Below, one piece after another: positions 3,748 through 53,306 of a stretch of DNA of 64,000 nucleotides. The stretch is taken from positions 1-64,000 of the forward strand of contig CAIXZF010000115.1 of assembly GCA_903923925.1 (NCBI GenBank). Reading direction: 5' to 3'. Within the stretch, counting starts at the first letter, position 1; the number at the start of each line of letters is the position of its first letter. The notes under the pieces are model-generated. The model saw only the letters and a program-made list of their open reading frames with translations. It was not told where the DNA came from and ran no database searches. The translations under genes and the position numbers were made by a program. This DNA is from an uncultured Bacteroidales bacterium. Lineage in GTDB: Bacteria; Bacteroidota; Bacteroidia; Bacteroidales; CAIXZF01.

Positions 3748-6700
3748 TTACTTGGTAAGAACCATCATCGTTGATTTAACATAGTCCTTAGTTGCACCCT
3801 TTACTTCCATCTTGTAAGTATAGACGCCAGGAACTAATGAAGAACCATCGAATTTAACCTTGTAAGTATTAGCATTCTGGTCAACATTGTTAACAAGAAC
3901 AGCTACCTGATCTCCAAGGATATTATAGACAGTCAAAGTAACTTTTCCATCTTCAGGAAGGTTGTAAACGATTTCTGTTACGCCCTTGAATGGATTTGGA
4001 TAATTGCTGATACTGTATTCATTAGCAGCAACAACCAATTTAGGATAAGTTAAATTAACATTCTGAATTGCAGCAGCACTCTTGTCAGAAATTTCGCTAA
4101 CACCATCAAGTGTAAGAGCTAATTCACCGGCAGCAACACCACTGATATTCTTTGTCTTTAGGTTCAGCGTAAGGAGAGCATCCATATTGCTGAGAGTAAT
4201 TTCCTTCATACTGTACCATGAAATTCTCAATTCGCCATTGTTAGCAGTGTAGAGAACATCACTTGAGTTGCCGTTATTAACAACAACACCTTCTACGTCA
4301 ACCAGATTTTCAGGATAGAATACTACCATTGAGATAGCGCCTACCTTTAGTGAACCGGTAACATTTACAGGCAGTAAGAAAGATTCGTATGATTTGATTT
4401 CTTTTACACCAAGGGTGTTAAGAGATACTGTAGCAGGAGTTTTTACGTAAGGTGGAGTGTATGAACCATTAACATCACCAAAACATAAAGCACTGAAATT
4501 ATTGATCACATTACTTGAGCCTAAAACAACTGTATTAGCCTGGAATAACCAATCACCTGCTGGGAAGCTGGAAATCTGGTTTACAAACCTCTTAGCTGCC
4601 ATGAGAGCATCAATTGAGTTAACTGCTGCATCTGCATTAACATTTGCTGCAAGTGCTCTGAATGGTGCCAAAGTGCTGATTCCAGCAAAATGTTTCAGAA
4701 TCAGAAGCGCGTCAGCTGAGTTAACACCACCCCAAGGTTTGCTACTTGCTGCGCGAACAGTGTATGAACCAGGAGTTAAGCTGCCGAAGTTATAGTGACC
4801 ACTATTATCAGTTGTAGTTGTTGCAACAAGTGCAGAACCCTGCATCAGGTTAACACTTACATTATTCATTACAGAACCTGCTGTATTGTCATAAGCAACT
4901 GTACCACTGATACCATATTGTGCACAAACTGCAGCATGGATTGTCTGGGTAGCAAAACCTGAACAACCATTCTGATCTGTATAAGAGTAAGTGATTTGAT
5001 AATCACCAGCTACTGTAGCATTGAATTGTCCACCTGTTACAAACTGACCACTATAAACACCACCTGCAGGATAACCACCGGTTAATGTTAATGAACCTGC
5101 GCCTAAGCAGAATGTGTTTGCAAACTGAGCTAAGCTAACAACTGGAGCACCGTAAACAGTGATCGACCTTGAAGCCTGACCTGAACAACCATTAGCATCC
5201 TGATACATATAAACTACTGAATAAGTTCCAGCACCATAAGTGGTAGGATTGAATGTTGTAGCTAAAGTACCATTAACATAGTATGAACCACCAGCTGGTA
5301 AACCGCCACCGAGTACTATCGGACTTGAACCGAAACATACACCGCTGAAAGAAGCTAGAGTAACATATGGAAGAGCATCTACTGTGATGTTCTGAGTTGC
5401 AGAATTTGCACAACCATAACCATTAGTGTATTCGTAGGTAATTGTGAAAGTACCAACTCCAACACCTGCTGGATCAAATTGATTAATCTGGATACCGTTT
5501 ACAAAGTATACTCCACCTGCTGGTGAACCTCCGCTAAGTGCGAATGCTGCTGAACCTTCACAAACACTTGTGAATGGGCTTAAGCTAACCTGTGGTAAAG
5601 GAGTAACAGTGATAACTGCTGAACCATTCATAACGTATTCGCAAGTTGTCAGACTTACAGACTCAACTGTATAGGTTCCGGCAACACTGTAAGTACCAAA
5701 TGATATAGCTGAACCAGTTCCAACTTCAACAACACCTGTTGCATTTCCGTCAAGCATAAGCTGATAATAAACACCAGCCTGTGAACCATCAAGTCCAACT
5801 GCAACACCATTACCAAACTGGCAGGTTACACCACCACCGGTAACATTGTATACTGCAGGTGCAGGATTTACAGAAATGATTACGTTTTCGTAACCAGGAT
5901 TGAAACAGAATGCATCATGTAGTTCACCAAATGTATAAGTAGTAGTTACACTAGGAGATACAGTGAGATCATATGTATTTGTTAACAGATTATTAACCTG
6001 TAACAAACTTGAACCATTGTAAATTGTGAATGAGAACGGTGGTACACCTGTGATATCAAGGCTGATAGTTGACTGCTGTCCAACACAAACTGTGGTAGGA
6101 GTTGCAGTGACAGTCATTTCTGGCCATCCCTTTGTGATAACATTTACAGTTCCTGTCATAATGTTGCTACATCCGCTGATTGGATTAGTTGCAACAACCC
6201 AGTAGAATCCAGAATCAGCAACTGACCAAACAATTGGCAGACCATTTCCGGCTACAGCACCTTGAACAGAAATAGGTAGAGTTGTACCAGCATAGAATTT
6301 ATATAACTGGTAGTTAATTCCCTGGCTAGAGCAATTCAGGATAAGATCCACGAAACAACCTGTACAACAGATTGGATTTGGAGCATTGAATGTGCAAGCA
6401 TCAGGAATACCATATACAGTTACATACTGTGAATAAGAATTAGCACATAAACCATTGCTGTAAGTATAAGTAACCATATAAGGTCCACCAACACCAGCAG
6501 CAGCAGGATTAAATGTATTACCAACTACTCCAGGACCACTGAAAACACCACCGGCCATATTTGCAGTTAGAGTAACTATAGGCTCATTCACACAATAAGT
6601 TGCTGAAAGACCTGAGAAGAATACATTTGGTATTGCACCAACACTTGTTGTATGACTTACACTGCTTGAGCAACCATTACCATCAGTAAATGAATACGTA

Positions 6701-9700
6701 ATAGTATATGGTCCGCCAATACCAGATAATTGTGGATTGAAGTATGCAGTTCCATTGTTATTGTCAATAACTCCCTGACCACTGAATGAACCAAGTGGTG
6801 CATGGTTACCAACAAGTAATGACATCTGAGCATCAATACAATATTCAGGATTCAAGCCTGTAAAGCTAACTGCAGGTAATGGGTTAACAACGATACTGCT
6901 ATAAGCAAATCCTTGGCAACCTGTACCATTTGTATACTGATAGGCAATAGCATGTGAACCTAAACCAGCTGTAGCAGGGTTGAAGCTTGTTGCTGCAACT
7001 CCATCAACTTTGTAAGAACCACCAGCTGGTAAACCACCTGTAAGAACAAACGGAGCAGCATTTACACAAACTGCAGCATATTGAGGAATAGAAACTCCTG
7101 GAATCTGAGTTACGCTAACGATAGCTGAACCATTGGTTACATTATTGTAACAACCGTAGAAATCACTAACCCAAGCTAAAGTATAAACACTTGTAACAAC
7201 TGGTTTTACGTAGAAGCTATAAGGATTTGTAGTAATACCTGAATGTGTAACAGTTGATGATCCATTGCTTAAACCAAAGCTGTATGGAGCTGTACCAATA
7301 CTAAAGTTAACTGTCAATAAAGCACTGTCGCCAGCACAAATTGTTGAGTTACCACTTAGCATTGCCTGAGCTGTAGGATAGATGACAACAGTAGCACTAC
7401 CGTTCATCCATGTCCAGCAACCAGTTTGCATGTTGGTAGCTTTGATAGTATAAGTACCACCAGTAGTTGAGTAATCATAGCAGAATGGCTGTCCGTTACC
7501 ATATTTAATAATTCCGGAAGCTACATTGTTGATATAGATCTCATAGGAGATACCTGTTTGTGAACCACTAAGGCAAACAAATACGTGAGTACAACCTAAG
7601 CAGCAAGCACCACCACCAGTAACGTTAAATACCGTTGGAAGAGGAGTAATTACTACAATAGATGTTCCGTTCATAACTCTGTTACAACCTGTACCATTAT
7701 CATGAGCTACAACTGTATAAGTACCAGCTACTGTCTGATATCCAAAACTTAATGGACTGCCAGTTCCGGCTAATACCTGTGATGTTGCTGTAGAACCAAT
7801 GTACAGAGTGTAAATAGTACCTACCTGTGATCCGCTCAGACCAACAATCACTCCCTGACCACCAGCGCAGTATGAACCACCACCGGTTACAACAAATGAA
7901 CTTGGTGAGTTTACAGTAATTGTTGCACTTCCACTACCTGAATTCTGGCAATGAGCGTCAACAACTGTAGAAATTGTGTAGGTTCTTGTATTACCAGGAG
8001 TTACGATAGTATCCCAGTTTGAAGTAAGAATATGATGTGAAAAACTGTTGAAACCATCGTTTACAACAATGTTCCAAGGAGCAGTACCAGTTAAGGTAAC
8101 ATGTAATGTTGCACTTAAACCATAACATACAGTTGCACTACCGCTAATTGTAGCAGTTGGTAAAGGATCAACAACTACTGTTGCAGTTCCTGTCATATTC
8201 CTTGTACATGTAGTTTGAGGATTGAAAGCAATTACTGTATAATCGCCAGCAGCTGTAACACCACAGAAACTTAATACTGAGCCTGTACCAGCTAGAGTTG
8301 TTCCAGTGTAGATATTGTTAAGTAATAATTTATACTCAACACCTGTCTGTGATCCACTTACGTATACACAAACACCAGAACCTCCAACGCAGTAACGACC
8401 ACCGCCACTAACATTGTAACCATTCATACCTGGATCTGGAATAACAACAGCATCGCCGTTCATAGTACTGGTACAACCTGTAGTTGCATTTACTGCTACA
8501 ACAGTATAGATACCAGTTGTCTGAGGACCAAAACTAATTGCTGAACCAGTACCGGCTACAGTTGCAATAGGACTTGGAGTACCTTGTCTGAATAACTGAT
8601 AGTTAACACCAGCCTGTGAACCGTTCATACCAACATAAACTCCAATACCACTGCAGAAATAACCACCACCGTTCACCTGGAACTTAGTTGGATTTGGATT
8701 AACAGTTACAGTACCAGCATTACCTGTGTTGTAACAAACTGCATCAGTAACAAGAGAAATAGTGTATGTTGTAGTTACACTTGGAGTAACACTATAATTG
8801 TAATCAAATGTTGTAACACCAGTTACACCACTGTTTACGTTAAGAACTGAGTTCGTTGTGCCGTTGTTAATATGAACTGCCCAATATGAATCTCCTGTTA
8901 AGTGGATATTCAAATTAGCGGTCTGACCAGCACAAATTGTACCATTATCGATAGTAGCTGTAGGAGGAGCCTGTTCAACAACAGTAGCAGTGCCACCCAT
9001 CATTGAAGCGCAACCAGTTACAACGTTTGTAGCTATAACAGTATATAAACCTGAAAGCTGAACACCACCAAAAGAAATAGCGTTGCCTGTACCTGCTACG
9101 ATAACCCCTGTTGGATTTCCGTCTCTTAACAGTTCATAGCTAATACCAGTTGATGAACAAGCTAAACCAATAGCTGGAGGAATACAACCGAAGCAGTAAA
9201 CACCACCACCAGTAATATAACATACTTCTGGTAAAGGATTAACAACTACAGTAGTAGTAGTACCACTTGAACACTGATGCTCATCAACTACATTAACTGA
9301 GTATACACCTGCATTAACAGCAGTTGCATTAGCAATACTTGCTGTAGCGCCAGTTGCTGTGAAAGCGTTTGGACCACTCCAGTTGTAGTTAATAATACCA
9401 AAACCAGTTGCAGAAGCAGTTAGGTTAATTGTTTCATGTACACAAACAGGTGTGTTACTAGCTGAAGTAACAACTGGAAGACTCCAAACTGCTAAAGTAG
9501 CAGTTGCAGAAGCTACACAACCATTAGCATCAGTAACAGTAACTGAATATACACCAGCATCAACAAGAGCTGCAGAAGCTAATACAGGATTTGCAATTGC
9601 AGAAGTAAATCCGTTAGGACCTGTCCATGAATAATTGAATGGGCCAGTACCAGCAGCATAAGCATGTAGTGTTAGAGTACTACCAATACAAGCTGATGAA

Positions 9701-12700
9701 CCACCAGCTGTAACAACTGGTAAAGGATTAACAACAACAGTTGTTGAACCAGTATTAACACAACCATTAAGGTCGGTAATCTGAAGTGTATAAGTACCTG
9801 CATTTGCAAGAGTTACACCATTCAATACTGGATTAGCTACAGAAGAAGTAAATCCGTTTGGACCAGTCCATAAGTATGTAAATGGACCATTACCGGTAAC
9901 AGTACTTGTAATTGTAACATTTCCACCAATACAAACAGGTGATGAGTTAGCAATACTTACAACTGGAAGTGCCCAGATTGTAATTGTTGCACTACCTGAA
10001 CCAGTATTTGTACAACCGTTACCATCAGTTACACTAACAACAGTGTAAGTAGTAGTTGCAGTTGGGCATACACTGTAATTGAAGCTTGCAGTAGAAGCAG
10101 TAACAGTAAAGTTACTTGTACCATTGCTTACAACAATCTGCCAAGGTGATTTTCCAGTTGACTGGAAATGAATAGTTGAACAGCTACCATAACATACTGA
10201 ATGAACACCAGTAAGAACAGTAGTTGGTAATGGATCAATAATAATTGGAATACATCCGATCATATTGTTAGTACAGCCTGTTGTAGGATTAGATGAAACA
10301 ACACTGTAATAACCAGGAAGTGTATGATAACCGAAAGAAATAGGTGAACCTGTTCCTGATACAGTCATAACGATTGAGTCAGCCTGGCAGCAGCAAGCAT
10401 TGAGTAACAATGTGTACTGAACACCAATCTGTGAACCGCTTAATCTGATCTCACGACCGTTTCCACCAATACAATAGTGACCACCCCCCTGAACATTAAA
10501 CCATAATGGTAATGGATTAATATGAATCGTAGGATTACCTGTCATCCAATTTGTACATCCGTAAATGTTTGTTGCAAGTACTTCATAAGTTCCACTTACA
10601 GCCTGAGGACCGAAAGTAATTGTTGAACCTGTACCTGTAGCAATTCCATCTGGAGCAGCTACTGCAGCACCATCTTTGTATAATCTGTAGCTAGTTCCTA
10701 AATCTGAACCTGAAAGTGCTACCTCAACACCACTACCAGCACATGTAGAATTACCACCTGGTAATATTACACTGAAGATATTTGGTCTTGGATGAACAAT
10801 TGCATTTACAGTTGTAGTACTAACACACTGATGACCAAGACTGGTTACAGTTAATGTATAAACTCCTGAATTAACAACCTGAGCATTAGCAATCACTGGA
10901 TTCTGCAGATTAGAAACAAATCCGTTTGGACCAGTCCAGCTGTAGCTTACGCCTTCTGGATGAGTTGCATTAGCAAATAGATTTAAGGTCTCATCAGCAC
11001 AAATCGGAGTTGGACTCTGATAAGCAGATACAATAGTTGGCAGAGCAACAACGCAAGCCTGACCATTAAAGAAATTAGTTGTCAGAACATCACCATTAAG
11101 CTTACTCAACTCACATGCACCCTGTGCAACGAGGTCAAAATTCAGAGCGTGACATGTTCCACCAGCATTTAATCCGTTAAATCTCAGATCAAGGAAATGG
11201 AATGTGCCATAGTTGCTATTTACAGTATTTGAAACATCAAAATAAGAAATACCAATTCTGTTTCCACTAGCGTATACAGATAACTGTAATGGGCTTAACT
11301 GTGAATTCAGGTTAATATAGTTCGTATATGTGAAGTTTGTATTATCATAATAGATCGTCAATGAAATAGCATTGATAGAATCTGCATGTGTGAATGTAAG
11401 TGGAACAAGAATATCACTGCTTACGCATGATGAAACGTTTCCAGCATACACATTAACAATAGGATCAATTGAAAGAACTCCGGCAGGACTATTAACTGTG
11501 TTACATGGACCAGAAACAACAGCACGATATTGATATCTTGTCATTGAGTATGGGCAAGCAGTTAAATTAAGAACTGAAGTAGTTACACCACTATAAATTC
11601 CGCCATTAGCTAAGTTTGTCCAGGTTGAACCACCATTGGTAGAAATCTGCCATTGAATAGCAGCATTTGAACCACCAGCTGTAACACTGAACGATGCAGC
11701 CTGACCTTCATCAAGATAAGCATTCGCAGGAGGAGTAACAATACTAACAGGAACATAATAAGCTAAAGTAGCTGAACTGTTCATAGTGTTGTAGCAGTAG
11801 TATGGTGCATTATTACGTGTACCAACAACTGTATAAACACCAGCAGCAAAAGTTGTAGATGACCAGGTAAGAGCAGGACCCTGTAAATAGTTTCTTGTTA
11901 AACCTGTTGGATTACCATTGAAATAAAGTTCATAAGTAACTCCAAATTCGCTGAAATTCTGTCTGATAACAACTTGTGTTCCCTGGCAAACAGTCAAAGT
12001 CTGACCACCACCCTGGAATGATACAAAGTATTTGTTAGGTAAAGGAAGAACAACAACAGCAGCTGAACCAGACATTAATTTCTGGCAACCAGTTGAATTA
12101 TTTACAGCCATAACAGTATATGTACCAGCAAGGGTAACATTCTGGAATGTAAGTAAACCATTAACACCTGGCAGACTTTCGTCAGGAACCATTACGTAAC
12201 CGTTTCTGTAAAGATGATAAGTAACACCAAGGTTTGAATTGTCGAGATTGATATCAACACCTAAACCTGAAGCACCACTACCAGCTGAACAATAACTTCC
12301 ACCACCGCTAACTGTATATACAAGTGGTAAAGGATCAATCACAACAGTAACACTGTTATTCATCATCTTTGTACAACCACTGGCATTGTAAACAGCTTGT
12401 ACTGTATAAACTCCAGTAGCAGTCTGAACTCCGAAATCGATAATAGTTCCTGTACCAACCATTGAAATACCAGTATAGGTACCATCAAGGATCAGTCTGT
12501 AAGAAGCTACAAAGAATTCTGAATTACTCAACCTGATATGTACTCCTGGAGCTGGGATATAATTGCAATAATGTCCGTTGTTGTCAACAGTAACACTAAA
12601 TGCATCAGGAATCTTATTAACTGTAACAGTTGAAGTAGCATTGCTTGTACAACCATTTGCGTTTGTATAAGTGTAGGTAACAGTTTTAGCACCTAATCCA

Positions 12701-15700
12701 GCTACTGCAGGATAGAAAGTACCACCAGTTACACCAACACCACTATAAGTACCACCTGCTGGTGTACCACCTGTAAGAACAACACTTGCAACATCCTGGC
12801 AAACTGCCATTGGAGCAAAACTGCTTACAACAGGCAGAGCGTTAACAGTAACACTATGAGTTGCTGTATAAGAACAACCACTAGCATTTGTGTAAGTATA
12901 GCTAATATTATATGTTCCAGTTACACTTGGAGTAAAGGTTGCTGTACCATTTCCATGGTCTGCAATACCATTACCACTGAATACGCCATGTAAATCTGTT
13001 GGGAAGCCAGTAACTGTTACTGCTGCTGCACCATTACAGAATGTTGAAACTGGCATGCTTAAGGAAACAGTTGTTGCAGGATAAACAAGAACAGTTACAA
13101 AACTGATTGCTACACCACATGCACTTGTTACCCTAACTTCATAGGTAGTTGTAACTGATGGGAAAAGTACAGGAGTACTTGGATATGAACTTGCTGTTGT
13201 GATAGCGGCGCCACCTGCAACAAACCACTGGTAAATTCCACCACCTGAAGCTGTAAGCATTGTGCCTTCACCTTGACAAATAGTATCATTTGGACCAGCA
13301 TGTGCTACCGGAGTATTGCCAGTTGTAACAACTAAAGGAGCAGAAACTGCAGAACAACCAAAATTATCAGTAACTGTTACTGTAAATGAGGTGTTGCTGT
13401 TTGGCTGTGGGATAACACTTGGATTTTGAGTTCCAGGAATTACTGCAGGAGAAACTACTGAAGGACTTGCAGCCCAAACAAAGTTATATGGAACATGTCC
13501 ACCACTTACCATTGCATTCAGGTTAGCTGTTGAACCGTTACAAATATTATAAGTAGTACCTAAACTAACAACAGGAGGTGTATTTACAGTTACTGTAAAT
13601 GTACCAACTCTGTAACAACCACTTGTTACATCAGTTACTGTAACAGTATAAACTGTAGTAACTGCTGGAGTAGCAACAGGATTCTTAATACTTGTACTGC
13701 TTAAACCAGCAGAAGGAGCCCATGCGTATGTGAATGGACCAGTTCCAATAGTTGGAGCATTTAAAGGAATTGTTACAGATCCACCAGGACAGATACCTGC
13801 AGTGTTGCCACCAGCAAATTCTACATTTGGAGAAGCTCTTACAATTACAGAAATCTGAGCATATCCTTCGCAACCATGATTATCAGTAACGGTAACATGA
13901 TATGTTGTTGGACTTGATGGAGTTGCAATTGGTGAAGCAACAGAAGCACTGCTTAAACCAGCAGCTGGACTCCAATTGTAACTTGCAATTGAACTACCTG
14001 AACCAAAAACTGAAGTAGCACTTAACGTTGCGCCTAAACCATCGCAAACTGTGATACTTGTTGCACCACTATTAATACTTACAACAGGAGGAGTATTAAC
14101 TGTAATATACATAGAGTCAATAGCTGTACATCCGGTTGGATCATAAATAGTTACATGAATATATTTTGAAACTGTTGGATGAGCAAGAACTGATCCGTAA
14201 CCATTTGGTGATAAATCAGCAAGTGGACTCCAGTTAAAATCGTATGGACCTGTTGAGATCTGAGCATTTTTAAGAATAGCGTGCAGAATTGTTGTACCAC
14301 CAACACAAATAGTATTTGTCTCGGCAAACAATGAATCTTTCAAAACATCTACAACAATAGTTTGTGAACCTGACATATTACTCATACAATACGTAGGAGC
14401 TCTGTTGCTCTTGCCTTTTACAGTATAAACACCAGCCAAAACCTGATTAGGTTCGAACCAGAATGCTGTACCAGGACCTGCAAATGTGTCAACTACAACA
14501 CTATTTCTGTATAAATAATAGGTAACACCATTTTCAGAACCATTTAGACCAATTGCAATGCCGCCTGTGTTCACACAATAGTGACCATTAGGATCGTTCA
14601 TTACAACCTGATAACCACTGAATGGTAATGGATTGATATTCACATTCCACAGAATTGATAAAGCACGTGTACAGTTTGTTGCATCTGTAACACTTGTGAT
14701 TTCGTAGGCTGTAGAATCGTTTGGTGTAAGTGTAAGTGTATAGTTAAATGGTGAAGTTGAACCAGTAACACCAGCAACGATACTTGTCTGACTGATACCT
14801 TTAGCTTTCCAGGTTACTGTCCATGGGGCTGTTCCTGTTAAAGTGAAAGTATAGCTTGTTGATTCACCTCTGCAAAGAGTAGTTGAAGCAAATGCACCTG
14901 TTAAGGTAGCTTTTGGCATAACTGTAATCGTTTTGCTTGCAGCTGAAACACAACCATTAACGTCTGTATAAGTGTAGGTAATTGTAAATGTACCTGCTGT
15001 TGATGGTGTAAAAATACCACCTGAAACACCAGTTCCGGTATAAACGCCACCAACTGGTAAACCACCTGTTAATGTTAATGGAGCAGCATCAATACAAATG
15101 TTTGCATAATTTGCATTTCCAGTTAGTAAGGTAACAGTTGGAAGAGCATAAACAAGCAAAGAAGCATCTGCGCTATTTGAACAACCGAATGGATCAGTAT
15201 AAGTATAAGTAACTAAATGACTACCAACACCGGCAGCAGTTACATTAAATACACCAGCTGTGATAAAACCACCTGAGTAAACTCCACCTGTTGGTGAACC
15301 ACCAGTTAAAGTAACAGGAGCATGATTAATGCAATAACCTGCAGGAACAAAACTTAATGATGGACCTGGAAGAGCTCTTACAAGAATCGTTTTGCTGTCT
15401 GATGACAAACATCCGTTTGGAGCAATATAGGAATACGTAATAACCTGATTACCTGTTCCGGCTAAATCTGGATTGAACATACCATTATTAACACCATTAC
15501 CACTATAAGTACCTCCAAGTGGTAAACCACCGCTAAGTGCAAAAGGTGCATGATCGATACAATAATAGGATGGAGAGAAACTAGCCAATGTTACAACTGG
15601 TTTAGGAATAATACCAATCAAAACAAAATCTGATGCTACACCGCATGAACCAGAAACGGTACAGGTGAACTTAGCATTGCTTACAGTAGCTCTAACATAT

Positions 15701-18700
15701 GGATTAGCAATATTTGGATTAGAAATATACTGTCCCGGAGGATAGCTGGTCCAAGAATAATAATAACCACCTGTTGCAGTTAACTGAATTGAATCACTTA
15801 AAGTTGCTGTAGTAGCTTTACATACTGTAGCAGCATTTGGGTGAATATCAACAGTTGCATACCCTGAAACAACGGTAATAGTAACATTGTCAACATCGGT
15901 AAATCCTAAAGCATCAGTAACAGTTACTGTATAAGTAGTTGTACTGTAAGGATGAGCTACCGGATTGTAAATTGAAGTAGATGATAAGGTAGCAGCATTG
16001 TTCCAATGATAGGTATATGGTGCTTTTCCTCCAACTACGTGAGCATAAATCTGTGTATTAGCAGTATCACAAACAGTTGCATCATAATCAGCATTTGCCT
16101 GTAATTCAGGATAAACAAAAACTGTTGCATATACATAAATGGTATCTACGGAAGAACCAGTAGAATAATCCCAAATTTTTGCTGTATACATCGTTGTTAC
16201 AGGAGGTGTAGCGATTGGTTTCTGACATTGTGTAGGAATACAGCTTGTGCCGCACTCATTTACATTGCAGGATAAACCAATAGATGGCGACCACCTTACA
16301 TGATATGTTTTCTTTCCGGCAATAATTTGAGGCTGTCCACCTTTAATAAAAAGGTCGAGTGTATCTCCGGCTACGCCTTCGATGTTTACATTTGGACATG
16401 AACCAAATAAAGCAGGGTTTTCATAAATCTTTACGTTATCGAATGCAAAACCTTCATCAACAAATGTATTGCTGTTTGAATGGAAATACACGCGAAGTTT
16501 AACACTTGATTTACCACCTAAACCAATCAAACGATGGATTACAGTTACATAACCTGTACCACTCGACTGACCGGCCCAAACTGGGTTACCAAGATTTGTT
16601 GTATCATTATACCAGTTGGTAGCATCATATAAATTTCCAACTGGATTCCAGGTAAGACCACCATCAATGGATGACAGTACGCGGGCTCCATCATTATGGG
16701 CTTCACTTCTGTATTTAACATCCATTTGGATCATTGGGTTTACATTGAGGCTCATATCAAAACATGGGCTTTCAACATATGACTCCTGGCTTGCAGAATA
16801 GTTACCCGTTGTTTTGGTAACCCATGCTTTTGTACCAGAAGCTGCGCCATTGATAAATGTTTTCGCAGGAGTTCCAAGTGCCCAGTCATTGTTTGCACCA
16901 TATGAATACCAATATGAATCTGTGCCATCGAAGTTCTGTGTATAAGGAAGATCCCCATCATCAGAAATTGCAATAACAGGAAGATTCCTGATTGGAATAT
17001 TTTTCAGTGTATCGTTGCTGGTTTTTAAATCACCAGCAAGTGCTACAGAAAATTTGCAAATATGCACACCAACAGCACTAAAGTTGGCATGAGTAGCAAA
17101 TGTATACGATTTTACTTCTCCCGGATTAATGGTTGTTGTAACATGTTCTGGAGTAATCCAGCTTATACCATTATAATAAGAGACATAATAATCATTCTGT
17201 GCTACCTCACCCTTATTTTCGATTTCCACCGTAACTATTTCTGAATTCGACATGCTGCATTTTGAAACTGGAGCAATCGAACGTTTTACAGAAAGGTCTT
17301 TGTCATAAGGAAGTACATTAATTTTATAGTCTTCAGCTTCACCATAGGAGAAGAGTCCGCATGGACCTGAATAACTAAACGAACTGTAAATAACGCGCAT
17401 TGTTGTAACACCAACAAGAGCTGTCATTGGTACAGCAACATTAGCTGTAACTGTAAATGGAGTATATATACTAGTTGTACCTATACCAACGGTTACCTTT
17501 TCTGTACTTACATCAAAAGAACCATCATGGTTCCAGTCAATATAGGCATCAAAATAACCAGCCCAAGAAGAATAATCACAGGTTTGTGCAGTTACACTGA
17601 TAGGGTATGTAAATCCCTTCCTGATAGAAGGAGCAGCAACGGTTCCTCTGAAATCAGTATAACCTGTAGCTGAGGTACAAGTACTGCTGTTATTTAATGT
17701 TCCCAGAGTAACATTAGTGATGTCCTCATAATTAATATAAGAAGAACCTGTAGCACAATAAACATAAAGTTCACTTGCTGTAAATGACCAGACTGGACAT
17801 CCAGTAGCTGAACCAATAACATTAGTTGGAACAACCTTCCAGTAATAAACCTGACCAGGTGTCATTAAAGGAGGAGTAAAACTTGCTGTACTCACGTTGC
17901 CAATAAAAGCAGGTGGGTTAGTAGTACCAAAGTAAACATCATAGGTTTCTGCCATTGGAGGAGAAGTCCAGGTAAGTGAACCATTCCTTGGCTGAGTTGT
18001 GGATAAATTCGAAGGGCTAAATGTGGTAACGCAAGAAGGTGCTGCCAGTTCATAAACAGAAACAGCATCCATTGCAAAATTATTACCATAAAAACTTGTT
18101 CCCAGGAAGCCAATTTTAATACTGCTAGCTCCAGCATAGGCATCAAGGTTAATCATATGTTTTCCCCAATATGTATTAAGATCATATCGGAGTATTGGAG
18201 TACCAACATTTGTCCATACGGTTCCTCCGTCTGTTGAAACCTGTACTTGGATGCTCTCATTATAGCCAGCATAACCAGGGTCATGCGACATATAAAATTC
18301 TACTCTTGGATGTATAGCACCAGCAAAAGTAAATACCGGAGTAATCAGTCGTGATTGTGTACCACTTGAGTAAGAAAATGCACTGAAGATTGCCATGTAA
18401 CCACCCTCATATGGGTTCATAGTAGGATAAGACATCGCAGTGGTAATACCCCAGTTTCCAGTACCGGCAACCTGCTGTACAAGCCAGCATGGGTTAGTTG
18501 CACCAAAACCGAATGAGTAAGGAAGACCCAAAGTAACACATGGTGTAGTTGCATTAGCACTTGCACCTCCCGAATAGTAATTAGCAGCTGTTACAGAGTA
18601 GGCCATATAATAATAAGTGGTAGCCGGACTCAAAGGAGTATGAACATAAGAAGTAGCTGCACCATTATAAATAACAGTACCTGTTCCAATTGTAGCTCCC

Positions 18701-19470
18701 GCAACATAAGGGGTGGTAGCGGTAGGAACAGTAAATGAATTGGTAGTACTTGCAACTACCATAACATTATTACTACTTGCATTTTTCGTCCATGCAAGGT
18801 TTATAGTAGTTGGATTCGCTGCTGTTGCAGTAAAAGTAGCCGGATTTAATACCGGTGGAGTAAGTTGCCAGGTAAAGCGAATATTTGAACGCATTGTACT
18901 TGTTGTACCACTAGTCTGGCCAAAAGCCGCGGTTCCATCACTTTGATAATACAAATAACGATTATCAGCAAAGGTAGTGTATGCCATTGAGGCGTTACTA
19001 TTATATGTAGTTATATCCGTACTGATTTGTATCAGGATATTGGAAGTACCATCCCACTGAAAGGGAGTGGTAAGAGTATGAGTATTAATACCTGCAACAG
19101 GATTATAGGTTGCAGTTTGGTAAACCAAAGCTGGCGTGGTTAAGAAGGCTGTACTCGGAAAAGCTCCGGTAGTTGTCAATCCGGCATAAAACCTGTAATT
19201 GCTCATGTTTGTACAACCATTCGTTGCAGTTACATTGAAGCCGATTTGAGTAATCCATCCGGCAGTCATCCCCGCCGCGGTTAATTCCGAAGCCTGATAA
19301 ATAAGCTGTGTTTTTCCGTTACCCCAATAATGCATATAACCAGTAGGTTGGGAACTACTGGCGTTGGTAGCTGTCCCACTCCCAATGGTATACACCGTCT
19401 GGCCGATGGAGTTAAATGATATCCCGCCAAGTATCAGAAGCGGAATTAAAAGCGTAATTACTTTTTTCAT
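3748..19470 (-). CDS. Giant modular T9SS-secreted surface protein with cohesin and dockerin-like domains
   Basis: The protein has 5240 residues from the ATG at 19470. This start puts a clean signal peptide (KKVITLLIPLLILGGISF, ending near IGQ) at the N-terminus; the open frame extends 38 codons further but that part is not signal-like. Approximate layout: N-terminal beta domain to 200; fibronectin III 204-304; choice-of-anchor/MAM-like 311-474; fibronectin III 481-566; GEVED domain 571-719; a second MAM-like domain 837-1011; then about 40 Ig/PKD-like modules to 4850. A cohesin-like domain interrupts these at 2675-2810. The C-terminus has a carboxypeptidase-regulatory-like domain 4848-4910, a dockerin-like segment 4911-4971 (SADALLILKHFAG and SIDALMAAKRFV), a second cohesin-like domain 5011-5144 and a T9SS type A sorting domain 5151-5240 (SNYPNPF). 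The likely role is a very long surface adhesin or scaffold. The family assignment of each module is by eye. Confidence 0.9.
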   Translation of the reverse strand: MKKVITLLIPLLILGGISFNSIGQTVYTIGSGTATNASSSQPTGYMHYWGNGKTQLIYQASELTAAGMTAGWITQIGFNVTATNGCTNMSNYRFYAGLTTTGAFPSTAFLTTPALVYQTATYNPVAGINTHTLTTPFQWDGTSNILIQISTDITTYNSNASMAYTTFADNRYLYYQSDGTAAFGQTSGTTSTMRSNIRFTWQLTPPVLNPATFTATAANPTTINLAWTKNASSNNVMVVASTTNSFTVPTATTPYVAGATIGTGTVIYNGAATSYVHTPLSPATTYYYMAYSVTAANYYSGGASANATTPCVTLGLPYSFGFGATNPCWLVQQVAGTGNWGITTAMSYPTMNPYEGGYMAIFSAFSYSSGTQSRLITPVFTFAGAIHPRVEFYMSHDPGYAGYNESIQVQVSTDGGTVWTNVGTPILRYDLNTYWGKHMINLDAYAGASSIKIGFLGTSFYGNNFAMDAVSVYELAAPSCVTTFSPSNLSTTQPRNGSLTWTSPPMAETYDVYFGTTNPPAFIGNVSTASFTPPLMTPGQVYYWKVVPTNVIGSATGCPVWSFTASELYVYCATGSSYINYEDITNVTLGTLNNSSTCTSATGYTDFRGTVAAPSIRKGFTYPISVTAQTCDYSSWAGYFDAYIDWNHDGSFDVSTEKVTVGIGTTSIYTPFTVTANVAVPMTALVGVTTMRVIYSSFSYSGPCGLFSYGEAEDYKINVLPYDKDLSVKRSIAPVSKCSMSNSEIVTVEIENKGEVAQNDYYVSYYNGISWITPEHVTTTINPGEVKSYTFATHANFSAVGVHICKFSVALAGDLKTSNDTLKNIPIRNLPVIAISDDGDLPYTQNFDGTDSYWYSYGANNDWALGTPAKTFINGAASGTKAWVTKTTGNYSASQESYVESPCFDMSLNVNPMIQMDVKYRSEAHNDGARVLSSIDGGLTWNPVGNLYDATNWYNDTTNLGNPVWAGQSSGTGYVTVIHRLIGLGGKSSVKLRVYFHSNSNTFVDEGFAFDNVKIYENPALFGSCPNVNIEGVAGDTLDLFIKGGQPQIIAGKKTYHVRWSPSIGLSCNVNECGTSCIPTQCQKPIATPPVTTMYTAKIWDYSTGSSVDTIYVYATVFVYPELQANADYDATVCDTANTQIYAHVVGGKAPYTYHWNNAATLSSTSIYNPVAHPYSTTTYTVTVTDALGFTDVDNVTITVVSGYATVDIHPNAATVCKATTATLSDSIQLTATGGYYYSWTSYPPGQYISNPNIANPYVRATVSNAKFTCTVSGSCGVASDFVLIGIIPKPVVTLASFSPSYYCIDHAPFALSGGLPLGGTYSGNGVNNGMFNPDLAGTGNQVITYSYIAPNGCLSSDSKTILVRALPGPSLSFVPAGYCINHAPVTLTGGSPTGGVYSGGFITAGVFNVTAAGVGSHLVTYTYTDPFGCSNSADASLLVYALPTVTLLTGNANYANICIDAAPLTLTGGLPVGGVYTGTGVSGGIFTPSTAGTFTITYTYTDVNGCVSAASKTITVMPKATLTGAFASTTLCRGESTSYTFTLTGTAPWTVTWKAKGISQTSIVAGVTGSTSPFNYTLTLTPNDSTAYEITSVTDATNCTRALSILWNVNINPLPFSGYQVVMNDPNGHYCVNTGGIAIGLNGSENGVTYYLYRNSVVVDTFAGPGTAFWFEPNQVLAGVYTVKGKSNRAPTYCMSNMSGSQTIVVDVLKDSLFAETNTICVGGTTILHAILKNAQISTGPYDFNWSPLADLSPNGYGSVLAHPTVSKYIHVTIYDPTGCTAIDSMYITVNTPPVVSINSGATSITVCDGLGATLSATSVFGSGSSIASYNWSPAAGLSSASVASPIATPSSPTTYHVTVTDNHGCEGYAQISVIVRASPNVEFAGGNTAGICPGGSVTIPLNAPTIGTGPFTYAWAPSAGLSSTSIKNPVATPAVTTVYTVTVTDVTSGCYRVGTFTVTVNTPPVVSLGTTYNICNGSTANLNAMVSGGHVPYNFVWAASPSVVSPAVIPGTQNPSVIPQPNSNTSFTVTVTDNFGCSAVSAPLVVTTGNTPVAHAGPNDTICQGEGTMLTASGGGIYQWFVAGGAAITTASSYPSTPVLFPSVTTTYEVRVTSACGVAISFVTVLVYPATTVSLSMPVSTFCNGAAAVTVTGFPTDLHGVFSGNGIADHGNGTATFTPSVTGTYNISYTYTNASGCSYTATHSVTVNALPVVSSFAPMAVCQDVASVVLTGGTPAGGTYSGVGVTGGTFYPAVAGLGAKTVTYTYTNANGCTSNATSTVTVNKIPDAFSVTVDNNGHYCNYIPAPGVHIRLSNSEFFVASYRLILDGTYTGISMVGTGTIIDFGVQTATGVYTVQAVYNASGCTKMMNNSVTVVIDPLPLVYTVSGGGSYCSAGSGASGLGVDINLDNSNLGVTYHLYRNGYVMVPDESLPGVNGLLTFQNVTLAGTYTVMAVNNSTGCQKLMSGSAAVVVLPLPNKYFVSFQGGGQTLTVCQGTQVVIRQNFSEFGVTYELYFNGNPTGLTRNYLQGPALTWSSTTFAAGVYTVVGTRNNAPYYCYNTMNSSATLAYYVPVSIVTPPANAYLDEGQAASFSVTAGGSNAAIQWQISTNGGSTWTNLANGGIYSGVTTSVLNLTACPYSMTRYQYRAVVSGPCNTVNSPAGVLSIDPIVNVYAGNVSSCVSSDILVPLTFTHADSINAISLTIYYDNTNFTYTNYINLNSQLSPLQLSVYASGNRIGISYFDVSNTVNSNYGTFHFLDLRFNGLNAGGTCHALNFDLVAQGACELSKLNGDVLTTNFFNGQACVVALPTIVSAYQSPTPICADETLNLFANATHPEGVSYSWTGPNGFVSNLQNPVIANAQVVNSGVYTLTVTSLGHQCVSTTTVNAIVHPRPNIFSVILPGGNSTCAGSGVEVALSGSDLGTSYRLYKDGAAVAAPDGIATGTGSTITFGPQAVSGTYEVLATNIYGCTNWMTGNPTIHINPLPLWFNVQGGGHYCIGGNGREIRLSGSQIGVQYTLLLNACCCQADSIVMTVSGTGSPISFGYHTLPGYYSVVSSNPTTGCTNNMIGCIPIIIDPLPTTVLTGVHSVCYGSCSTIHFQSTGKSPWQIVVSNGTSNFTVTASTASFNYSVCPTATTTYTVVSVTDGNGCTNTGSGSATITIWALPVVSIANSSPVCIGGNVTITSTVTGNGPFTYLWTGPNGFTSSVANPVLNGVTLANAGTYTLQITDLNGCVNTGSTTVVVNPLPVVTAGGSSACIGSTLTLHAYAAGTGPFNYSWTGPNGFTSAIANPVLASAALVDAGVYSVTVTDANGCVASATATLAVWSLPVVTSASNTPVCVHETINLTASATGFGIINYNWSGPNAFTATGATASIANATAVNAGVYSVNVVDEHQCSSGTTTTVVVNPLPEVCYITGGGVYCFGCIPPAIGLACSSTGISYELLRDGNPTGVIVAGTGNAISFGGVQLSGLYTVIATNVVTGCASMMGGTATVVEQAPPTATIDNGTICAGQTANLNIHLTGDSYWAVHINNGTTNSVLNVNSGVTGVTTFDYNYSVTPSVTTTYTISLVTDAVCYNTGNAGTVTVNPNPTKFQVNGGGYFCSGIGVYVGMNGSQAGVNYQLFRQGTPSPIATVAGTGSAISFGPQTTGIYTVVAVNATTGCTSTMNGDAVVIPDPGMNGYNVSGGGRYCVGGSGVCVYVSGSQTGVEYKLLLNNIYTGTTLAGTGSVLSFCGVTAAGDYTVIAFNPQTTCTRNMTGTATVVVDPLPTATISGSATVCYGLSATLHVTLTGTAPWNIVVNDGFNSFSHHILTSNWDTIVTPGNTRTYTISTVVDAHCQNSGSGSATITVNSPSSFVVTGGGSYCAGGQGVIVGLSGSQVGTIYTLYIGSTATSQVLAGTGSPLSFGYQTVAGTYTVVAHDNGTGCNRVMNGTSIVVITPLPTVFNVTGGGACCLGCTHVFVCLSGSQTGISYEIYINNVASGIIKYGNGQPFCYDYSTTGGTYTIKATNMQTGCWTWMNGSATVVIYPTAQAMLSGNSTICAGDSALLTVNFSIGTAPYSFGLSNGSSTVTHSGITTNPYSFYVKPVVTSVYTLAWVSDFYGCYNNVTNGSAIVSVTQIPGVSIPQYAAVCVNAAPFVLTGGLPAGGSYKVDGVAATSFNPATAGLGSHAIAYQYTNGTGCQGFAYSSIVVNPLPAVSFTGLNPEYCIDAQMSLLVGNHAPLGSFSGQGVIDNNNGTAYFNPQLSGIGGPYTITYSFTDGNGCSSSVSHTTSVGAIPNVFFSGLSATYCVNEPIVTLTANMAGGVFSGPGVVGNTFNPAAAGVGGPYMVTYTYSNGLCANSYSQYVTVYGIPDACTFNAPNPICCTGCFVDLILNCSSQGINYQLYKFYAGTTLPISVQGAVAGNGLPIVWSVADSGFYWVVATNPISGCSNIMTGTVNVITKGWPEMTVTATPTTVCVGQQSTISLDITGVPPFSFTIYNGSSLLQVNNLLTNTYDLTVSPSVTTTYTFGELHDAFCFNPGYENVIISVNPAPAVYNVTGGGVTCQFGNGVAVGLDGSQAGVYYQLMLDGNATGVVEVGTGSAISFGTYSVAGTYTVESVSLTTCEYVMNGSAVITVTPLPQVSLSPFTSVCEGSAAFALSGGSPAGGVYFVNGIQINQFDPAGVGVGTFTITYEYTNGYGCANSATQNITVDALPYVTLASFSGVCFGSSPIVLGGGLPAGGSYYVNGTLATTFNPTTYGAGTYSVVYMYQDANGCSGQASRSITVYGAPVVSLAQFANTFCLGAGSLTLTGGYPAGGVYSGQFVTGGQFNATVAGDYQITYSYTDQNGCSGFATQTIHAAVCAQYGISGTVAYDNTAGSVMNNVSVNLMQGSALVATTTTDNSGHYNFGSLTPGSYTVRAASSKPWGGVNSADALLILKHFAGISTLAPFRALAANVNADAAVNSIDALMAAKRFVNQISSFPAGDWLFQANTVVLGSSNVINNFSALCFGDVNGSYTPPYVKTPATVSLNTLGVKEIKSYESFLLPVNVTGSLKVGAISMVVFYPENLVDVEGVVVNNGNSSDVLYTANNGELRISWYSMKEITLSNMDALLTLNLKTKNISGVAAGELALTLDGVSEISDKSAAAIQNVNLTYPKLVVAANEYSISNYPNPFKGVTEIVYNLPEDGKVTLTVYNILGDQVAVLVNNVDQNANTYKVKFDGSSLVPGVYTYKMEVKGATKDYVKSTMMVLTK
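4915..15620 (-). repeat. Protein-level repeat zone of the giant gene
   Basis: Four main module types are interleaved. One, with core GGxPxGGxYSG and ending NGC, occurs about 11 times. A second, about 90 residues, has core GGGxYC, then GSQxGVxYxL, GTGxxISFG and TGCxxxMNG; it occurs 13 times, starting near 14610, 12605, 12320, 12030, 10780, 10490, 9215, 8680, 8420, 7890, 7630, 6400 and 5850. A third (WTGPNGF) occurs 4 times and a fourth (SGxxTVCxG ... TGTAPW) 6 times. The copies have diverged enough that they are not direct DNA repeats. Confidence 0.8.
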
Positions 19471-20281
19471 ATAAGCATAATTTAAGTTAATTATTGATTG
19501 ATTCTCTATTTTCTTGTCCGGGTAATCATCATAGTAATTTCCTGTTTTTGTGCATGTTGTCGTTGTAAACGATTTTGTTTCCATAAGCGAACCCTTATTT
19601 GTTTTGTTTTGTTTTCAAAAAATATAGACGTATATAGGGATTTAACCTGCAAAGTAATAACATAATACTCGAAATTACAAAAAAAACTAAAAAAAATTGC
19701 CCGACACTTGCTTTTAAACAACTTTGGGGTCCAACTCCTTAATTCTCAATGTTAAATTCTAACTATACTTACTATTTCCAATATATATTTTCCTTATCGT
19801 CTTCGTACTAGCGTATATTTTATGGTTTTATTTTATACTATGATGAATTCTTTTTATGCCACTTTATACTTGATTTTATGCACTAAAGTTACAATTTATC
19901 TCAACTGCAACAGGCTTTCTGTAATATTTATCTCTCTATAACCCAATGATAACAGCAATTCTCAAACTATAATTACTTCAATTAATTCGTTTTCAGTTAA
20001 TTACAAGGCAAGCTTCATATCGCACAAATATAACCAAATTTCCCCAAATGTAAAAAGTTTTTTCCTTCTCCCATTCAGGTAATTGTTAATTTTCGTTAAA
20101 ACCACGCCTTTAACGCATTTTAATGCTTAAAATTTTAAGCCGGTTTGAGGAGCTCAGTTTTACGAGGTTAAATTAATATAATAAGTACGAGACTGCAAAG
20201 GATTTTAGGAAAAATATTAATAAACAATTGTTAATAACTCAAATTCAGTAATTTTGCGGGCATAACTAAAAGAACTAACCC
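19471..20281. other. Long AT-rich divergent intergenic region
   Basis: These 811 bases separate the giant gene from pepD. They are strongly AT-rich and no RNA gene or protein gene is supported. The pepD promoter lies at the right end. On the minus strand TATATTTG at 20025-20032 fits the -7 consensus, but no good -33 element accompanies it, and it would give a leader of about 550 bases for the giant gene. Confidence 0.55.
20228..20256 (+). promoter_or_regulatory. Promoter of pepD
   Basis: TTG at 20228-20230, 18 bases, TAATTTTG at 20249-20256. Both elements and their spacing fit the Bacteroidota consensus. The start codon follows 25 bases later. Confidence 0.7.
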
Positions 20282-51012: not shown

Positions 51013-51038
51013 TGTCATCAATAGTGACTTTTGATGCA

Positions 51039-51073
51039 CAAAAATATAGCATAAATCAAAGGATTTTAACAAA
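51039..51073 (-). promoter_or_regulatory. Promoter of the S8 protease gene
   Basis: On the minus strand TTTG (51070-51073), 23 bases, TATTTTTG (51039-51046). Transcription would start near 51032, which supports the start codon at 51012 or 51018. Confidence 0.55.
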
Positions 51074-51119: not shown

Positions 51120-53186
51120 TCAGTGTTTAACAAATTTCCGGGTAAACACAGTAGTTCCATCCGTAACTTTAAGCAAATAAAATCCGGGGTTAAGAGATTC
51201 GATCCGGATTGTATTTAATTCGGCTTTATGAAGTTTGCCTGTTTGCCCGGTTGATCCTAAAACATCTGAAATTACATATGCAGCATTCGGTTTATCCACA
51301 TCATAGTCGAGGTAAAGCTGGGTTGTAGCTGGATTTGGATAGAGCTTCACTTTTGCATATTTAGCGTCGTAGGAGTTAATTCCTGAAAAACTACCTTGTC
51401 CGCATGGAGTTGAATCGTTTTTGAAATAATTTCTGACCATATCGATTCGTTGATTCATAACAGTAATTGCTGCAGATGCATTTGTATCTGAATAATTACG
51501 CCCTGTAACGAAAGCGATATCGAGAGGTTGCATTGTTGTTTTATTAATAACGAAAGGGCCTAAAATTGCAATCCCTCTTCGGTCGGCGGGTGGATTGCCG
51601 GTTTCCAGTTCAGTCCATGAAGGCCCGGAGCCACCAGCTCCAGTTGTAAACCCGGCAGGTTGAATACCATCTGTTCCCCAGTTACAGGGATCGGTAAGCG
51701 CGGGAAACATAAACCTGCATTCAGGTCCTGTTGCACCACTGCCCGGATGCCCGTTTCCTCCATAACTGCAAGCTTGCCCATCGCGCCAGTTTCCCCTGAG
51801 ATAGCTAATGTATTCAGAACCAATTTGAGGGTCACTGGTTGGGCCTGAAGGTGAATTATTGAAATACCGGGATCCCATTAGTCCAAGGCGTTCATCGTCG
51901 CGATCGCCATTGCCAAAACCGAAACCATTAATACTCATATCGCAAGGTGAATGAGTGAGCGAATCATATTGAGGATCATCGAGTGTATTAGGTTCCATAA
52001 AAGGACCAGCAAGAATCGTAAGTGACTGAGCCGGAGGAAAAGTCCCATAATGAGCTGGAAGACCAGTACCATCAACATTAGTGCCGTTGTAAAAAAATAC
52101 AGAGCCACGTGAAACGTCAGTTCCAACATAATCGTCCCACAAAGAACCTAGATCTCCATCAATAAACAATCCAATTATGCCTTCACCATAGTCGTAGGTA
52201 GAACGGTTATAAACCTCAAGATGCATAAATACAGTATTCCAAAGGGCAGAATCCTGCTGACAATCGAAGGCATAGGTCATTGAATGAATTTCGACACCTA
52301 AGGCCTCTCCCTGTGTTTCAGAGTGAATACCTGCCTTATCATTATATATACTAAAAATAGCCATATCGCCACGTATTAAAGGATAATCTCCTTTCAACGG
52401 ATTGTATACATTGTCTCCGTCCACATCTTTAAAAGGTGCAAGTTTAGCCGATTCACCGAGGGCGGTATTGCCATTACCCGGCCAGGTAGCTATTGCAGTT
52501 ATCGGAATATAGCCCGGCTGCCACCAATGTGAGTTGTGCCATGCAATTTCAGAACGCCTGAGTTTCCATACTTTAGTCCATGTTTTTATATATTGATTAT
52601 CATAATTTGTTGAAACAGGACCGGAATAAAAATCCTGTCCCGGAACTCTGTACCGTTCAGCGGCGATATGATACTGACCGTTAACATCGCGGCCGGCAAT
52701 CCACATACTGAAATTAAATATACTTGATGCCTGGCCAGATTTAGGAACAACATAATGGTTCCCTCCAGTCAGATCCCAAAACTGGTTACCATATGAGTTA
52801 ATAAGAGCACTCACATTATTGATATTGAGTGTATCTCGACAAGGATTTTCGACAAACACAGATACCTTAGAATTAATTATTGCAGGGTTCACATAATCAA
52901 GCAATTTGTATAAAATATTAACCCATCCGTGCGCATAAATGGAAGGTTTGAAGGTGATTGTATTGTAGGTATAGGTTCTTATACCATATCCATTTGCAGG
53001 AGATCCTACAAAAAACAAATACAGAGAATCTCCGTCAGGGTCATAATCATTGGCAAGAATATTAACAGTTACACTATCACCATATGACACATATGCTGTA
53101 TCATTTATAGCAACAGGAGGAACATTCTGGGCCAGAATCCTTAATGTTGAAAGGAAAAACATGAATAGAAAGTAATTTGTTTTCAT
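51120..53186 (-). CDS. T9SS-secreted protein with cadherin-like N-terminal domain
   Basis: From the ATG at 53186 the product has 688 residues and a signal peptide (KTNYFLFMFFLSTLRILAQ). Residues 21-110 form a cadherin/Big_9-like domain with NDTAYVSYGDSVTVNILANDYDPDGD. The middle, which I cannot name, begins ALINSYGNQFWDLTGG and SIFNFSMWIAGRDVNGQ, a pattern common to many exported Bacteroidota proteins. A T9SS type A domain ends it (VKLYPNPATTQLYLDY ... TRKFVKH). It lies directly upstream of the S8 protease gene on the same strand, and may be its partner or substrate; that is inference. TATCTTTA at 53204-53211 may be its -7 element. Confidence 0.85.
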   Translation of the reverse strand: MKTNYFLFMFFLSTLRILAQNVPPVAINDTAYVSYGDSVTVNILANDYDPDGDSLYLFFVGSPANGYGIRTYTYNTITFKPSIYAHGWVNILYKLLDYVNPAIINSKVSVFVENPCRDTLNINNVSALINSYGNQFWDLTGGNHYVVPKSGQASSIFNFSMWIAGRDVNGQYHIAAERYRVPGQDFYSGPVSTNYDNQYIKTWTKVWKLRRSEIAWHNSHWWQPGYIPITAIATWPGNGNTALGESAKLAPFKDVDGDNVYNPLKGDYPLIRGDMAIFSIYNDKAGIHSETQGEALGVEIHSMTYAFDCQQDSALWNTVFMHLEVYNRSTYDYGEGIIGLFIDGDLGSLWDDYVGTDVSRGSVFFYNGTNVDGTGLPAHYGTFPPAQSLTILAGPFMEPNTLDDPQYDSLTHSPCDMSINGFGFGNGDRDDERLGLMGSRYFNNSPSGPTSDPQIGSEYISYLRGNWRDGQACSYGGNGHPGSGATGPECRFMFPALTDPCNWGTDGIQPAGFTTGAGGSGPSWTELETGNPPADRRGIAILGPFVINKTTMQPLDIAFVTGRNYSDTNASAAITVMNQRIDMVRNYFKNDSTPCGQGSFSGINSYDAKYAKVKLYPNPATTQLYLDYDVDKPNAAYVISDVLGSTGQTGKLHKAELNTIRIESLNPGFYLLKVTDGTTVFTRKFVKH

Positions 53187-53306
53187 ACCTTTAGATTTTC
53201 CATTAAAGATAATTTCTGAAAATCCCGGAAGCAATACAAAACCAGATAACGGTTGAGTATTTTCAGGATGCGGTAGTTTGCAAGGAGAAGACAGTATAAA
53301 GTTGAA

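Follow-up and report, generated by a model that had tools for sequence, protein, structure and literature searches.

A giant T9SS-exported protein with two cohesin-fold domains and a dockerin-derived segment nested in a CPD domain, and the putative cohesin-dockerin assembly of its Bacteroidota lineage

Does one giant protein of an uncultured Bacteroidales bacterium carry both cohesins and a dockerin in the same chain, and, if so, what might these domains bind? The question is raised by a stretch of 64,000 nucleotides (the window; contig CAIXZF010000115.1, positions 1 to 64,000), in which one gene had been predicted, from its letters alone, to encode a T9SS protein with two cohesin-like domains and a dockerin-like segment. 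Bacteroidetes have been described without cellulosomes. According to the excerpted text of a 2018 genome study, no cohesins or dockerins were found, in line with other Bacteroidetes genomes (PMC5831590), and in an excerpt of a second paper two soil species are without dockerin or scaffoldin (PMC6247017). The scaffoldins of a rumen consortium are placed in Clostridia only in the excerpt of PMC7480376, and an excerpted cockroach single-cell study reports PF00404 dockerins in a few Bacteroidota single-cell genomes (PMC10266427). We were interested in establishing which of the predicted domains are present in the giant protein, how they are arranged, and whether related genes occur in the rest of the genome and in other genomes.

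The longest open reading frame (ORF) of the gene lies on the minus strand at 3748-19584 (P0001, 5278 aa), and all residues are numbered by it, residue i beginning at 19584-3(i-1). Met39 opens what looks by eye like a typical signal peptide (MKKVITLLIPLLILGG...) and is the likely start. Since position 19470 corresponds to Met39, the residue numbers of the original prediction run 38 lower than those used here. Pfam matches begin with a GEVED domain near the N terminus, continue with Ig-like and PKD-like domains and end with CarboxypepD_reg (CPD), a borderline Dockerin_1 and a T9SS sorting domain, a large share of the remaining protein being Ig-like (Table 1). Among NCBIfam models, nothing except the T9SS tail scored above cut-off. 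With a C-terminal sorting domain, and with the translocon SprA encoded in the genome (2656 bits), the protein has what is expected of type A T9SS cargo. Our own HMM calls a T9SS tail in two other minus-strand genes of the window, a subtilase at 48175-51072 (Peptidase_S8, E 3.4e-41) and a gene with cadherin-like domains at 51120-53234 (PF18962), neither of which has a dockerin or cohesin call.

Table 1. Features of the giant gene; positions are those of the window and residues those of the longest ORF
Feature	Positions	Strand	Basis
CDS, giant T9SS protein	3748..19470	minus	5240 aa when begun at Met39
Signal peptide, residues 39-62 (MKKVITLLIPLLILGGISFNSIGQ)	19399..19470	minus	read by eye
GEVED domain, residues 677-756	17317..17556	minus	Pfam PF20009, E 3.8e-17
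Mid-chain (I-type) cohesin, residues 2710-2838	11071..11457	minus	leave-out HMM, AlphaFold2, VIA-align
CPD (carboxypeptidase-regulatory-like), first part, residues 4888-4946	4747..4923	minus	PF13620, E 8.1e-10, profile positions 2-56 of 82 only
Dockerin-derived helix pair within the CPD, residues 4949-5009	4558..4740	minus	PF00404, 21.3-25.1 bits; model helices H69-79, H87-93, H103-113
Calcium loop 1, N-terminal piece GGVNSAD (positions 6-12)	4711..4731	minus	column counts, 60 modules
CPD, last strands, residues 5012-5034	4483..4551	minus	solved CPD/transthyretin-like domains aligning on both sides of the dockerin
Calcium loop 1, C-terminal piece GDVNGSY (positions 1-5 = D-V-N-G-S)	4459..4479	minus	column counts and invariant D150
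T-type cohesin, residues 5052-5180	4045..4431	minus	VIA-align, leave-out HMM
T9SS type A sorting domain, residues 5194-5269	3778..4005	minus	PF18962, E 6.6e-10; TIGR04183, E 1.1e-8

Both cohesins were recognized by a leave-out HMM, built from paralogues with the window's copies excluded, which scored 77 bits at residues 2710-2838 and 60 bits at residues 5054-5176. Its three other reported stretches had negative bit scores, and none of 200 shuffled copies exceeded 6.6 bits. The AlphaFold2 model of the mid-chain domain (mean pLDDT 94.4, pTM 0.88) aligned by VIA-align with 6kgc_A at Z 19.0 (132 residues, 1.6 A) and also with 2xdh of Archaeoglobus fulgidus at Z 16.4, and cohesin or scaffoldin titles stood on nearly all of the 50 rows listed. 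The C-terminal domain, modelled as residues 165-293 of a larger block (mean pLDDT 94.2), matched 2vn5_A with Z up to 11.7 over 123 aligned residues at 2.6 A. The cohesin-like domain that had been placed at about residues 2675-2810, and the second one placed just before the T9SS domain, are therefore both borne out, and the structure prediction of the two segments gives cohesin folds rather than plain Ig strands.

The Pfam cohesin profile, PF00963, gave the isolated mid-chain domain 17 bits (E 0.0072; curated cut-off 24.1) and did not match the C-terminal module. The giant gene was absent among the 42 places listed in a whole-genome search with this profile, and neither of its cohesins was reported in a Pfam scan of long pieces. 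Elsewhere in the same genome the profile exceeded its cut-off at 30 of the 42 listed places, one of them with a neighbour's help. When a profile made from 50 of the listed cohesins of the genome, 37 of which match PF00963 at E <=0.1, was compared with the PDB, cohesins came first (best 2xdh, E 4e-11). The sub-threshold Pfam scores of the window copies are what speaks for regarding the segments as plain Ig-like strands with a chance helix pair. That explanation is ruled out, with next to no probability left to it, by the Z scores of 19.0 and 11.7 to solved cohesins, by leave-out HMM scores far above those of shuffled copies, and by the invariant motif residues described below. The predicted folds settle the identity of the two domains as cohesin-fold domains.

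The dockerin-like segment was correctly placed next to the second cohesin, and its two helix motifs, SADALLILKHFAG at residue 4956 and SIDALMAAKRFV at residue 4990, form a real dockerin-derived helix pair, but the segment is not a canonical dockerin and is nested in the CPD domain. The 293-residue CPD-dockerin-cohesin block (window 4045-4923, minus strand), whose numbering is used for the model helices and for D71, D105 and D150, was modelled by AlphaFold2 with pTM 0.90. Model residues 1-147 match solved CPD, transthyretin-like and CnaB domains (VIA-align) over some 80 aligned residues, and CPD strands resume at model residues 125-147, the dockerin not being one contiguous domain. Since a match of about 80 residues spans positions 1-147, and the dockerin helices lie at 69-113, the CPD is interrupted by the dockerin. 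The duplicated unit of calcium loop and helix is present, with an NSxDAL motif repeated. Among the rows listed for Foldseek and VIA-align there was no dockerin chain for the helix pair, an absence that we do not count against its dockerin identity. A Pfam search, proposed earlier as a check, gave below-cut-off or no matches for the window's cohesins and a borderline result for its dockerin, where PF00404 scored 21.3 and 22.4 bits against a cut-off of 22.9, and 25.1 bits in the genome search. Profile positions 1-7 were unmatched in the window dockerin, and 60 of the 65 PF00404 matches in the genome start at position 8 or beyond.

The calcium ligands are denoted by their positions in each dockerin loop. 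Loop 2 keeps ligands 1, 3, 5 and 12 in the window (N-V-N-A-D...N-S-I-D) and is canonical by pattern in 55 of the 60 modules of the genome. Loop 1, in contrast, lacks ligands 1, 3 and 5 in the contiguous layout, and canonical upstream ligands occur in only 2 of the 60 modules, the other 58 being not canonical. The calcium-coordinating residues whose absence would have spoken against a dockerin are thus kept in the second loop and missing from the contiguous place in the first. A D.N.S-type motif that follows the CPD strands closes the module in 56 of 60 cases, and in the columns of this closing GDVNGSY motif the D is found in 59 and the S in 58 of the 60. Furthermore, D71, D105 and D150 are invariant in all 54 modules of an alignment made from the window and 53 of the 59 modules from loci in other metagenome-assembled genomes (MAGs). 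Of these, D71 is the final ligand in loop 1 and D105 that in loop 2, and ligand 1 of loop 1 would presumably be D150; the D-V-N-G-S found some 80 residues downstream could supply the ligands that the window's loop 1 is without. The simplest reading of these sequences is that loop 1 is divided after position 5, with positions 1-5 now lying behind the last CPD strand, in which case the two pieces would be expected to meet in space. The domain is dockerin-derived, not a canonical type I dockerin. Elsewhere in the genome two dockerins do have the ordinary shape (C46:5186-5332 and C39:81787-81948).

The genome (4.6 Mb, 117 contigs) contains 60 CPD-dockerin ORFs. In 34 of them (class A) the dockerin is followed by a cohesin and then a T9SS tail; in the remaining 26 (class B) neither follows. 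The class A cohesin was called by our own HMM in 32 of the 34, and in the other two, which were left out of the class A module set, it was seen with a longer profile. PF00404 matched all 32 of the class A modules given at E <=0.1. Within class B, 22 of the 26 stop 2-7 residues past the dockerin and four run on into a Fib_succ_major domain. We considered whether class B genes could be broken class A genes and rejected this, 22 of the 26 ending within those 2-7 residues after the same motif; 25 ORFs in the named MAG loci, which end at most 60 residues from the dockerin, also support class B as real. By a crude hydrophobicity count of ORFs with complete 5' ends, signal-like N termini were found in 22 of 28 class A and 20 of 25 class B proteins. 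Three dockerins are free-standing (C32:88585-89764 and C35:188492-189106), with lengths of 190-204 aa and little beyond a signal-like N terminus and the CPD-dockerin.

Cohesins number about 85 in this genome, counting 83 non-duplicate ones, from which the cohesin tree was made, and the two of class A that our HMM had missed. Some proteins contain 4-10 internal copies, a scaffoldin of 5614 aa (C35:370741-387585) has 11, and partial genes at contig ends bear 5 and 4. For comparison, PF00404 exceeded its cut-off in two of 14 named control genomes and PF00963 in one. The original prediction had not included this set of about 60 dockerin genes, nor a CPD interrupted by a dockerin, nor a dockerin and a cohesin predicted to pack rigidly within the same chain. 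The scaffoldin stands in a run of five adjacent cohesin genes (C35:359881-395937; L041, L058, L061), whose other four members encode a cohesin protein of 980 aa, two class A proteins and a small cohesin-T9SS protein.

The pTM of 0.90 points to a fixed arrangement of the parts of the C-terminal block, and CPD, dockerin and cohesin are predicted to form a single rigid unit. This unit could have a purely structural role, as a rigid spacer before the T9SS tail, with the internal cohesins as stalk domains and no pairing in trans. Such a role would suit the high pTM of the three-domain block, the largely Ig-like remainder of the window protein, and the co-occurrence of the terminal cohesin and T9SS tail after the dockerin, found in 32 of 34 class A genes by HMM and in the last two by the longer profile. 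It leaves unexplained the 26 dockerins with no such cohesin and tail, the proteins with 4-10 internal cohesins and the free-standing dockerin proteins, and we consider it unlikely.

The dockerin-bearing proteins that were scanned do not resemble those of a cellulose-degrading complex. The standouts among the class B proteins, all 26 of which were scanned, are an M14 carboxypeptidase, a gingipain-like C25 peptidase, a heparinase II/III-like protein and a purple-acid-phosphatase-like protein; in the others the domains are non-catalytic, such as beta-helix, GEVED, BACON, PKD, cohesin or lectin-like ones, or there is no match, and three amount to scarcely more than a signal-like N terminus with the module. 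Class A, scanned in the N-terminal parts of 9 of its 34 members, includes C25, C10 and M6-like peptidases. No glycoside hydrolase family was detected in the 26 class B proteins or in those nine N-terminal parts (E 1e-3 to 1e-5), and there was none in the window protein, scanned with an E cut-off of 1, apart from sub-cut-off matches to ChitinaseA_N, an Ig-like domain. A classical cellulosome transferred into Bacteroidota would account for the 11-cohesin scaffoldin and the many dockerin proteins, but the scanned cargo of both classes and the window protein is without glycoside hydrolases and the dockerin itself has been rebuilt; we reject this explanation as very improbable. One locus, C51:56647-83160 (L050, L051), encodes C25 peptidases of both classes together with an M6-like class A peptidase and offers a natural pair in which the two tails can be compared within one enzyme family.

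In a quick tree the 32 terminal cohesins (T) were separated from the 51 internal ones (I) by one branch with SH-aLRT 97, requiring one change where shuffled labels required a mean of 25.8, in an alignment of few columns with three long branches. The two clades also differ in cysteines, at least two being found in 44 of 51 I-cohesins and in 5 of 32 T-cohesins. The T-cohesins are more diverged: of the 27 families matched by the 32 class A modules, the 25 listed do not include PF00963, and a single T-cohesin exceeded its cut-off (C35:110909-111181, 25.4 bits). A separate alignment of internal cohesins comprises the window's copy and 32 of the 58 internal cohesins. The dockerin tree does not sort the classes cleanly, with 14 changes against a shuffled mean of 19.7 and at least four of them forced by starred branches. 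The class label is nevertheless partly clustered on it, 14 changes having been reached in only 3-4 of 500 shuffles, with a bootstrap that is not settled. This intermingling of the classes means that one kind of dockerin has repeatedly been joined to, or parted from, a cohesin-T9SS tail, and it is what a dockerin shared by both classes would lead one to expect. Together, the two trees fit a system in which all dockerins share a partner, the internal cohesins, and the terminal cohesin next to the dockerin plays a special part; they do not prove binding.

These observations support, with a probability that we put at about 0.58, a model in which the giant protein is a T9SS-exported surface adhesin within a genome-wide cohesin-dockerin assembly of this uncultured Bacteroidota lineage, combining capture in trans with a block in cis. 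Its mid-chain I-cohesin would serve as a receptor for the dockerin on a different exported protein, class B being its most likely source. Its own dockerin would be held in cis by the adjacent T-cohesin, forming a latch or a stiff stalk beside the T9SS tail, and the split loop 1 would clasp the dockerin once both ends of the CPD have folded. The outcome would be a surface coat where tail-less proteins, such as the gingipain-like C25 peptidase, the M14 carboxypeptidase, the heparinase-like and phosphatase-like proteins and adhesins, are held by T9SS-anchored cohesin proteins like the giant protein and the 11-cohesin scaffoldin. If T-cohesins occupy them in cis, class A dockerins may be without any binding in trans. 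The protein may also polymerise or attach itself to other surface proteins, as originally suggested. We read the whole as an assembly of T9SS-displayed adhesins and peptidases and not as a cellulosome, its binding in cis or trans being putative.

How the tail-less proteins would leave the cell admits of more than one explanation. The split nested dockerin could be a tag for piggyback export, class B proteins being bound in the periplasm by the I-cohesins of class A partners, which would take them out through the T9SS, while the T-cohesin shields the carrier's own dockerin in cis; this we find rather improbable. Alternatively, the CPD-dockerin could itself be an export or sorting signal for class B, through the T9SS or another route, and the cohesins would anchor the proteins only afterwards. 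The signal-like N terminus of 20 of 25 class B proteins, the dockerin as last element in 22 of 26 with no T9SS tail, and the fact that C25 peptidases bear either tail agree with such a signal. Against it, T9SS export is known to use a C-terminal domain (CTD) bound to PorV inside the SprA pore, cargo without a CTD being unmentioned in the excerpt of the paper that describes it (PMC10994853). Furthermore, in class A, which has both dockerin and T9SS tail, the signal would be redundant. We regard a role of the CPD-dockerin as such a signal as improbable.

The proposed assembly shares with the clostridial cellulosomes of C. thermocellum and R. flavefaciens the cohesin fold, a dockerin-derived helix pair and a multi-cohesin scaffoldin. 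In type II cellulosome complexes an Ig-like X module stands beside the dockerin, and clostridial cellulosomes are anchored by sortase or SLH. Here, the dockerin is inside the CPD and not beside it, anchoring is through the T9SS, and the cargo so far consists of peptidases and adhesins. The non-cellulosomal cohesin 2xdh of Archaeoglobus fulgidus, the best sequence match of our cohesin profile (E 4e-11) and also a fold match (Z 16.4), comes from a chain that is one cohesin domain. A wider survey of such non-cellulosomal cohesin modules is said to have been made by Peer et al. in 2009. The likeness to Bacteroidetes described without cellulosomes lies in their T9SS-exported multimodular surface proteins, some with Ig-like folds, as far as excerpts of the two papers go (PMC6247017, PMC5831590). 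A related complex is proposed for the Cloacimonadota 'Ca. Stygibacter', where, in an excerpt of PMC8542988, a scaffoldin-like protein combines cohesins in tandem with a conserved anchoring domain at its C terminus, for which the authors cite a T9SS review. Its enzymes bear a signal peptide and a C-terminal dockerin, one of them being a C25 peptidase, and the complex is not cellulase-based (PMC8542988). The general idea of a scaffoldin with dockerin enzymes and a C-terminal anchor is, as that excerpt has it, already published for Cloacimonadota (PMC8542988). That complex belongs to another phylum, few of its proteins are named, and its scaffoldin has CBM2/CBM3; in the excerpted description there is no mention of a dockerin nested in a CPD, of a tail of the dockerin-cohesin-T9SS kind or of cohesins falling into two clades (PMC8542988). 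Titles and abstract openings of open-licence papers yielded no account of a Bacteroidota cohesin-dockerin network or of a CPD-nested, split or circularly permuted dockerin, and among that literature the split nested dockerin and the two-class system look new.

In one Bacteroidota genome, then, some 60 dockerin genes and some 85 cohesins are tied to the T9SS, against the absence stated in the excerpt of PMC5831590, and relatives are found in 25 MAGs. The network offers a testable route for displaying enzymes without a T9SS tail, and the calcium site, which in the model seems to close only once the surrounding CPD folds, might be a handle for the design of binding switches.

The scan of named genomes gave 73 loci, spread over 25 assemblies. 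Each of these bears the title of a MAG, most under Bacteroidetes or Bacteroidota groups and some under Ignavibacteria or, oddly, Sphingomonadales. The ORFs in these loci were 61 class A-like, 25 of class B and 7 cut off or extended. Another genome of the family (G001, with coordinates as MAG RA.bin97) has 108 matches, and by hand count the 90 matches listed of the 108 comprise 47 class A-like and 43 class B-like ones. At least one full-length match to the CPD-dockerin-cohesin profile was present in each of the 11 MAGs searched whole. In a phylum-wide search, where at most eight candidates were scored per genome and the result gives presence and not counts, 85 of 296 genomes, our own included, had a match at E <=1e-5; two genomes of the same order had none among the candidates so scored. 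One locus of our genome (L062, C57) is identical over 4683 bases (100%) to a locus of the Ignavibacteria MAG KTt_bin-1687 (L135, CAIOZA010000052), and either the same organism is in both bins or the contig is misplaced in one of them. At six loci (L115, L125, L128, L144, L151 and L164) a short gene (461-477 aa) for a CPD-dockerin-cohesin-T9SS protein is directly followed by a gene with two N-terminal cohesins.
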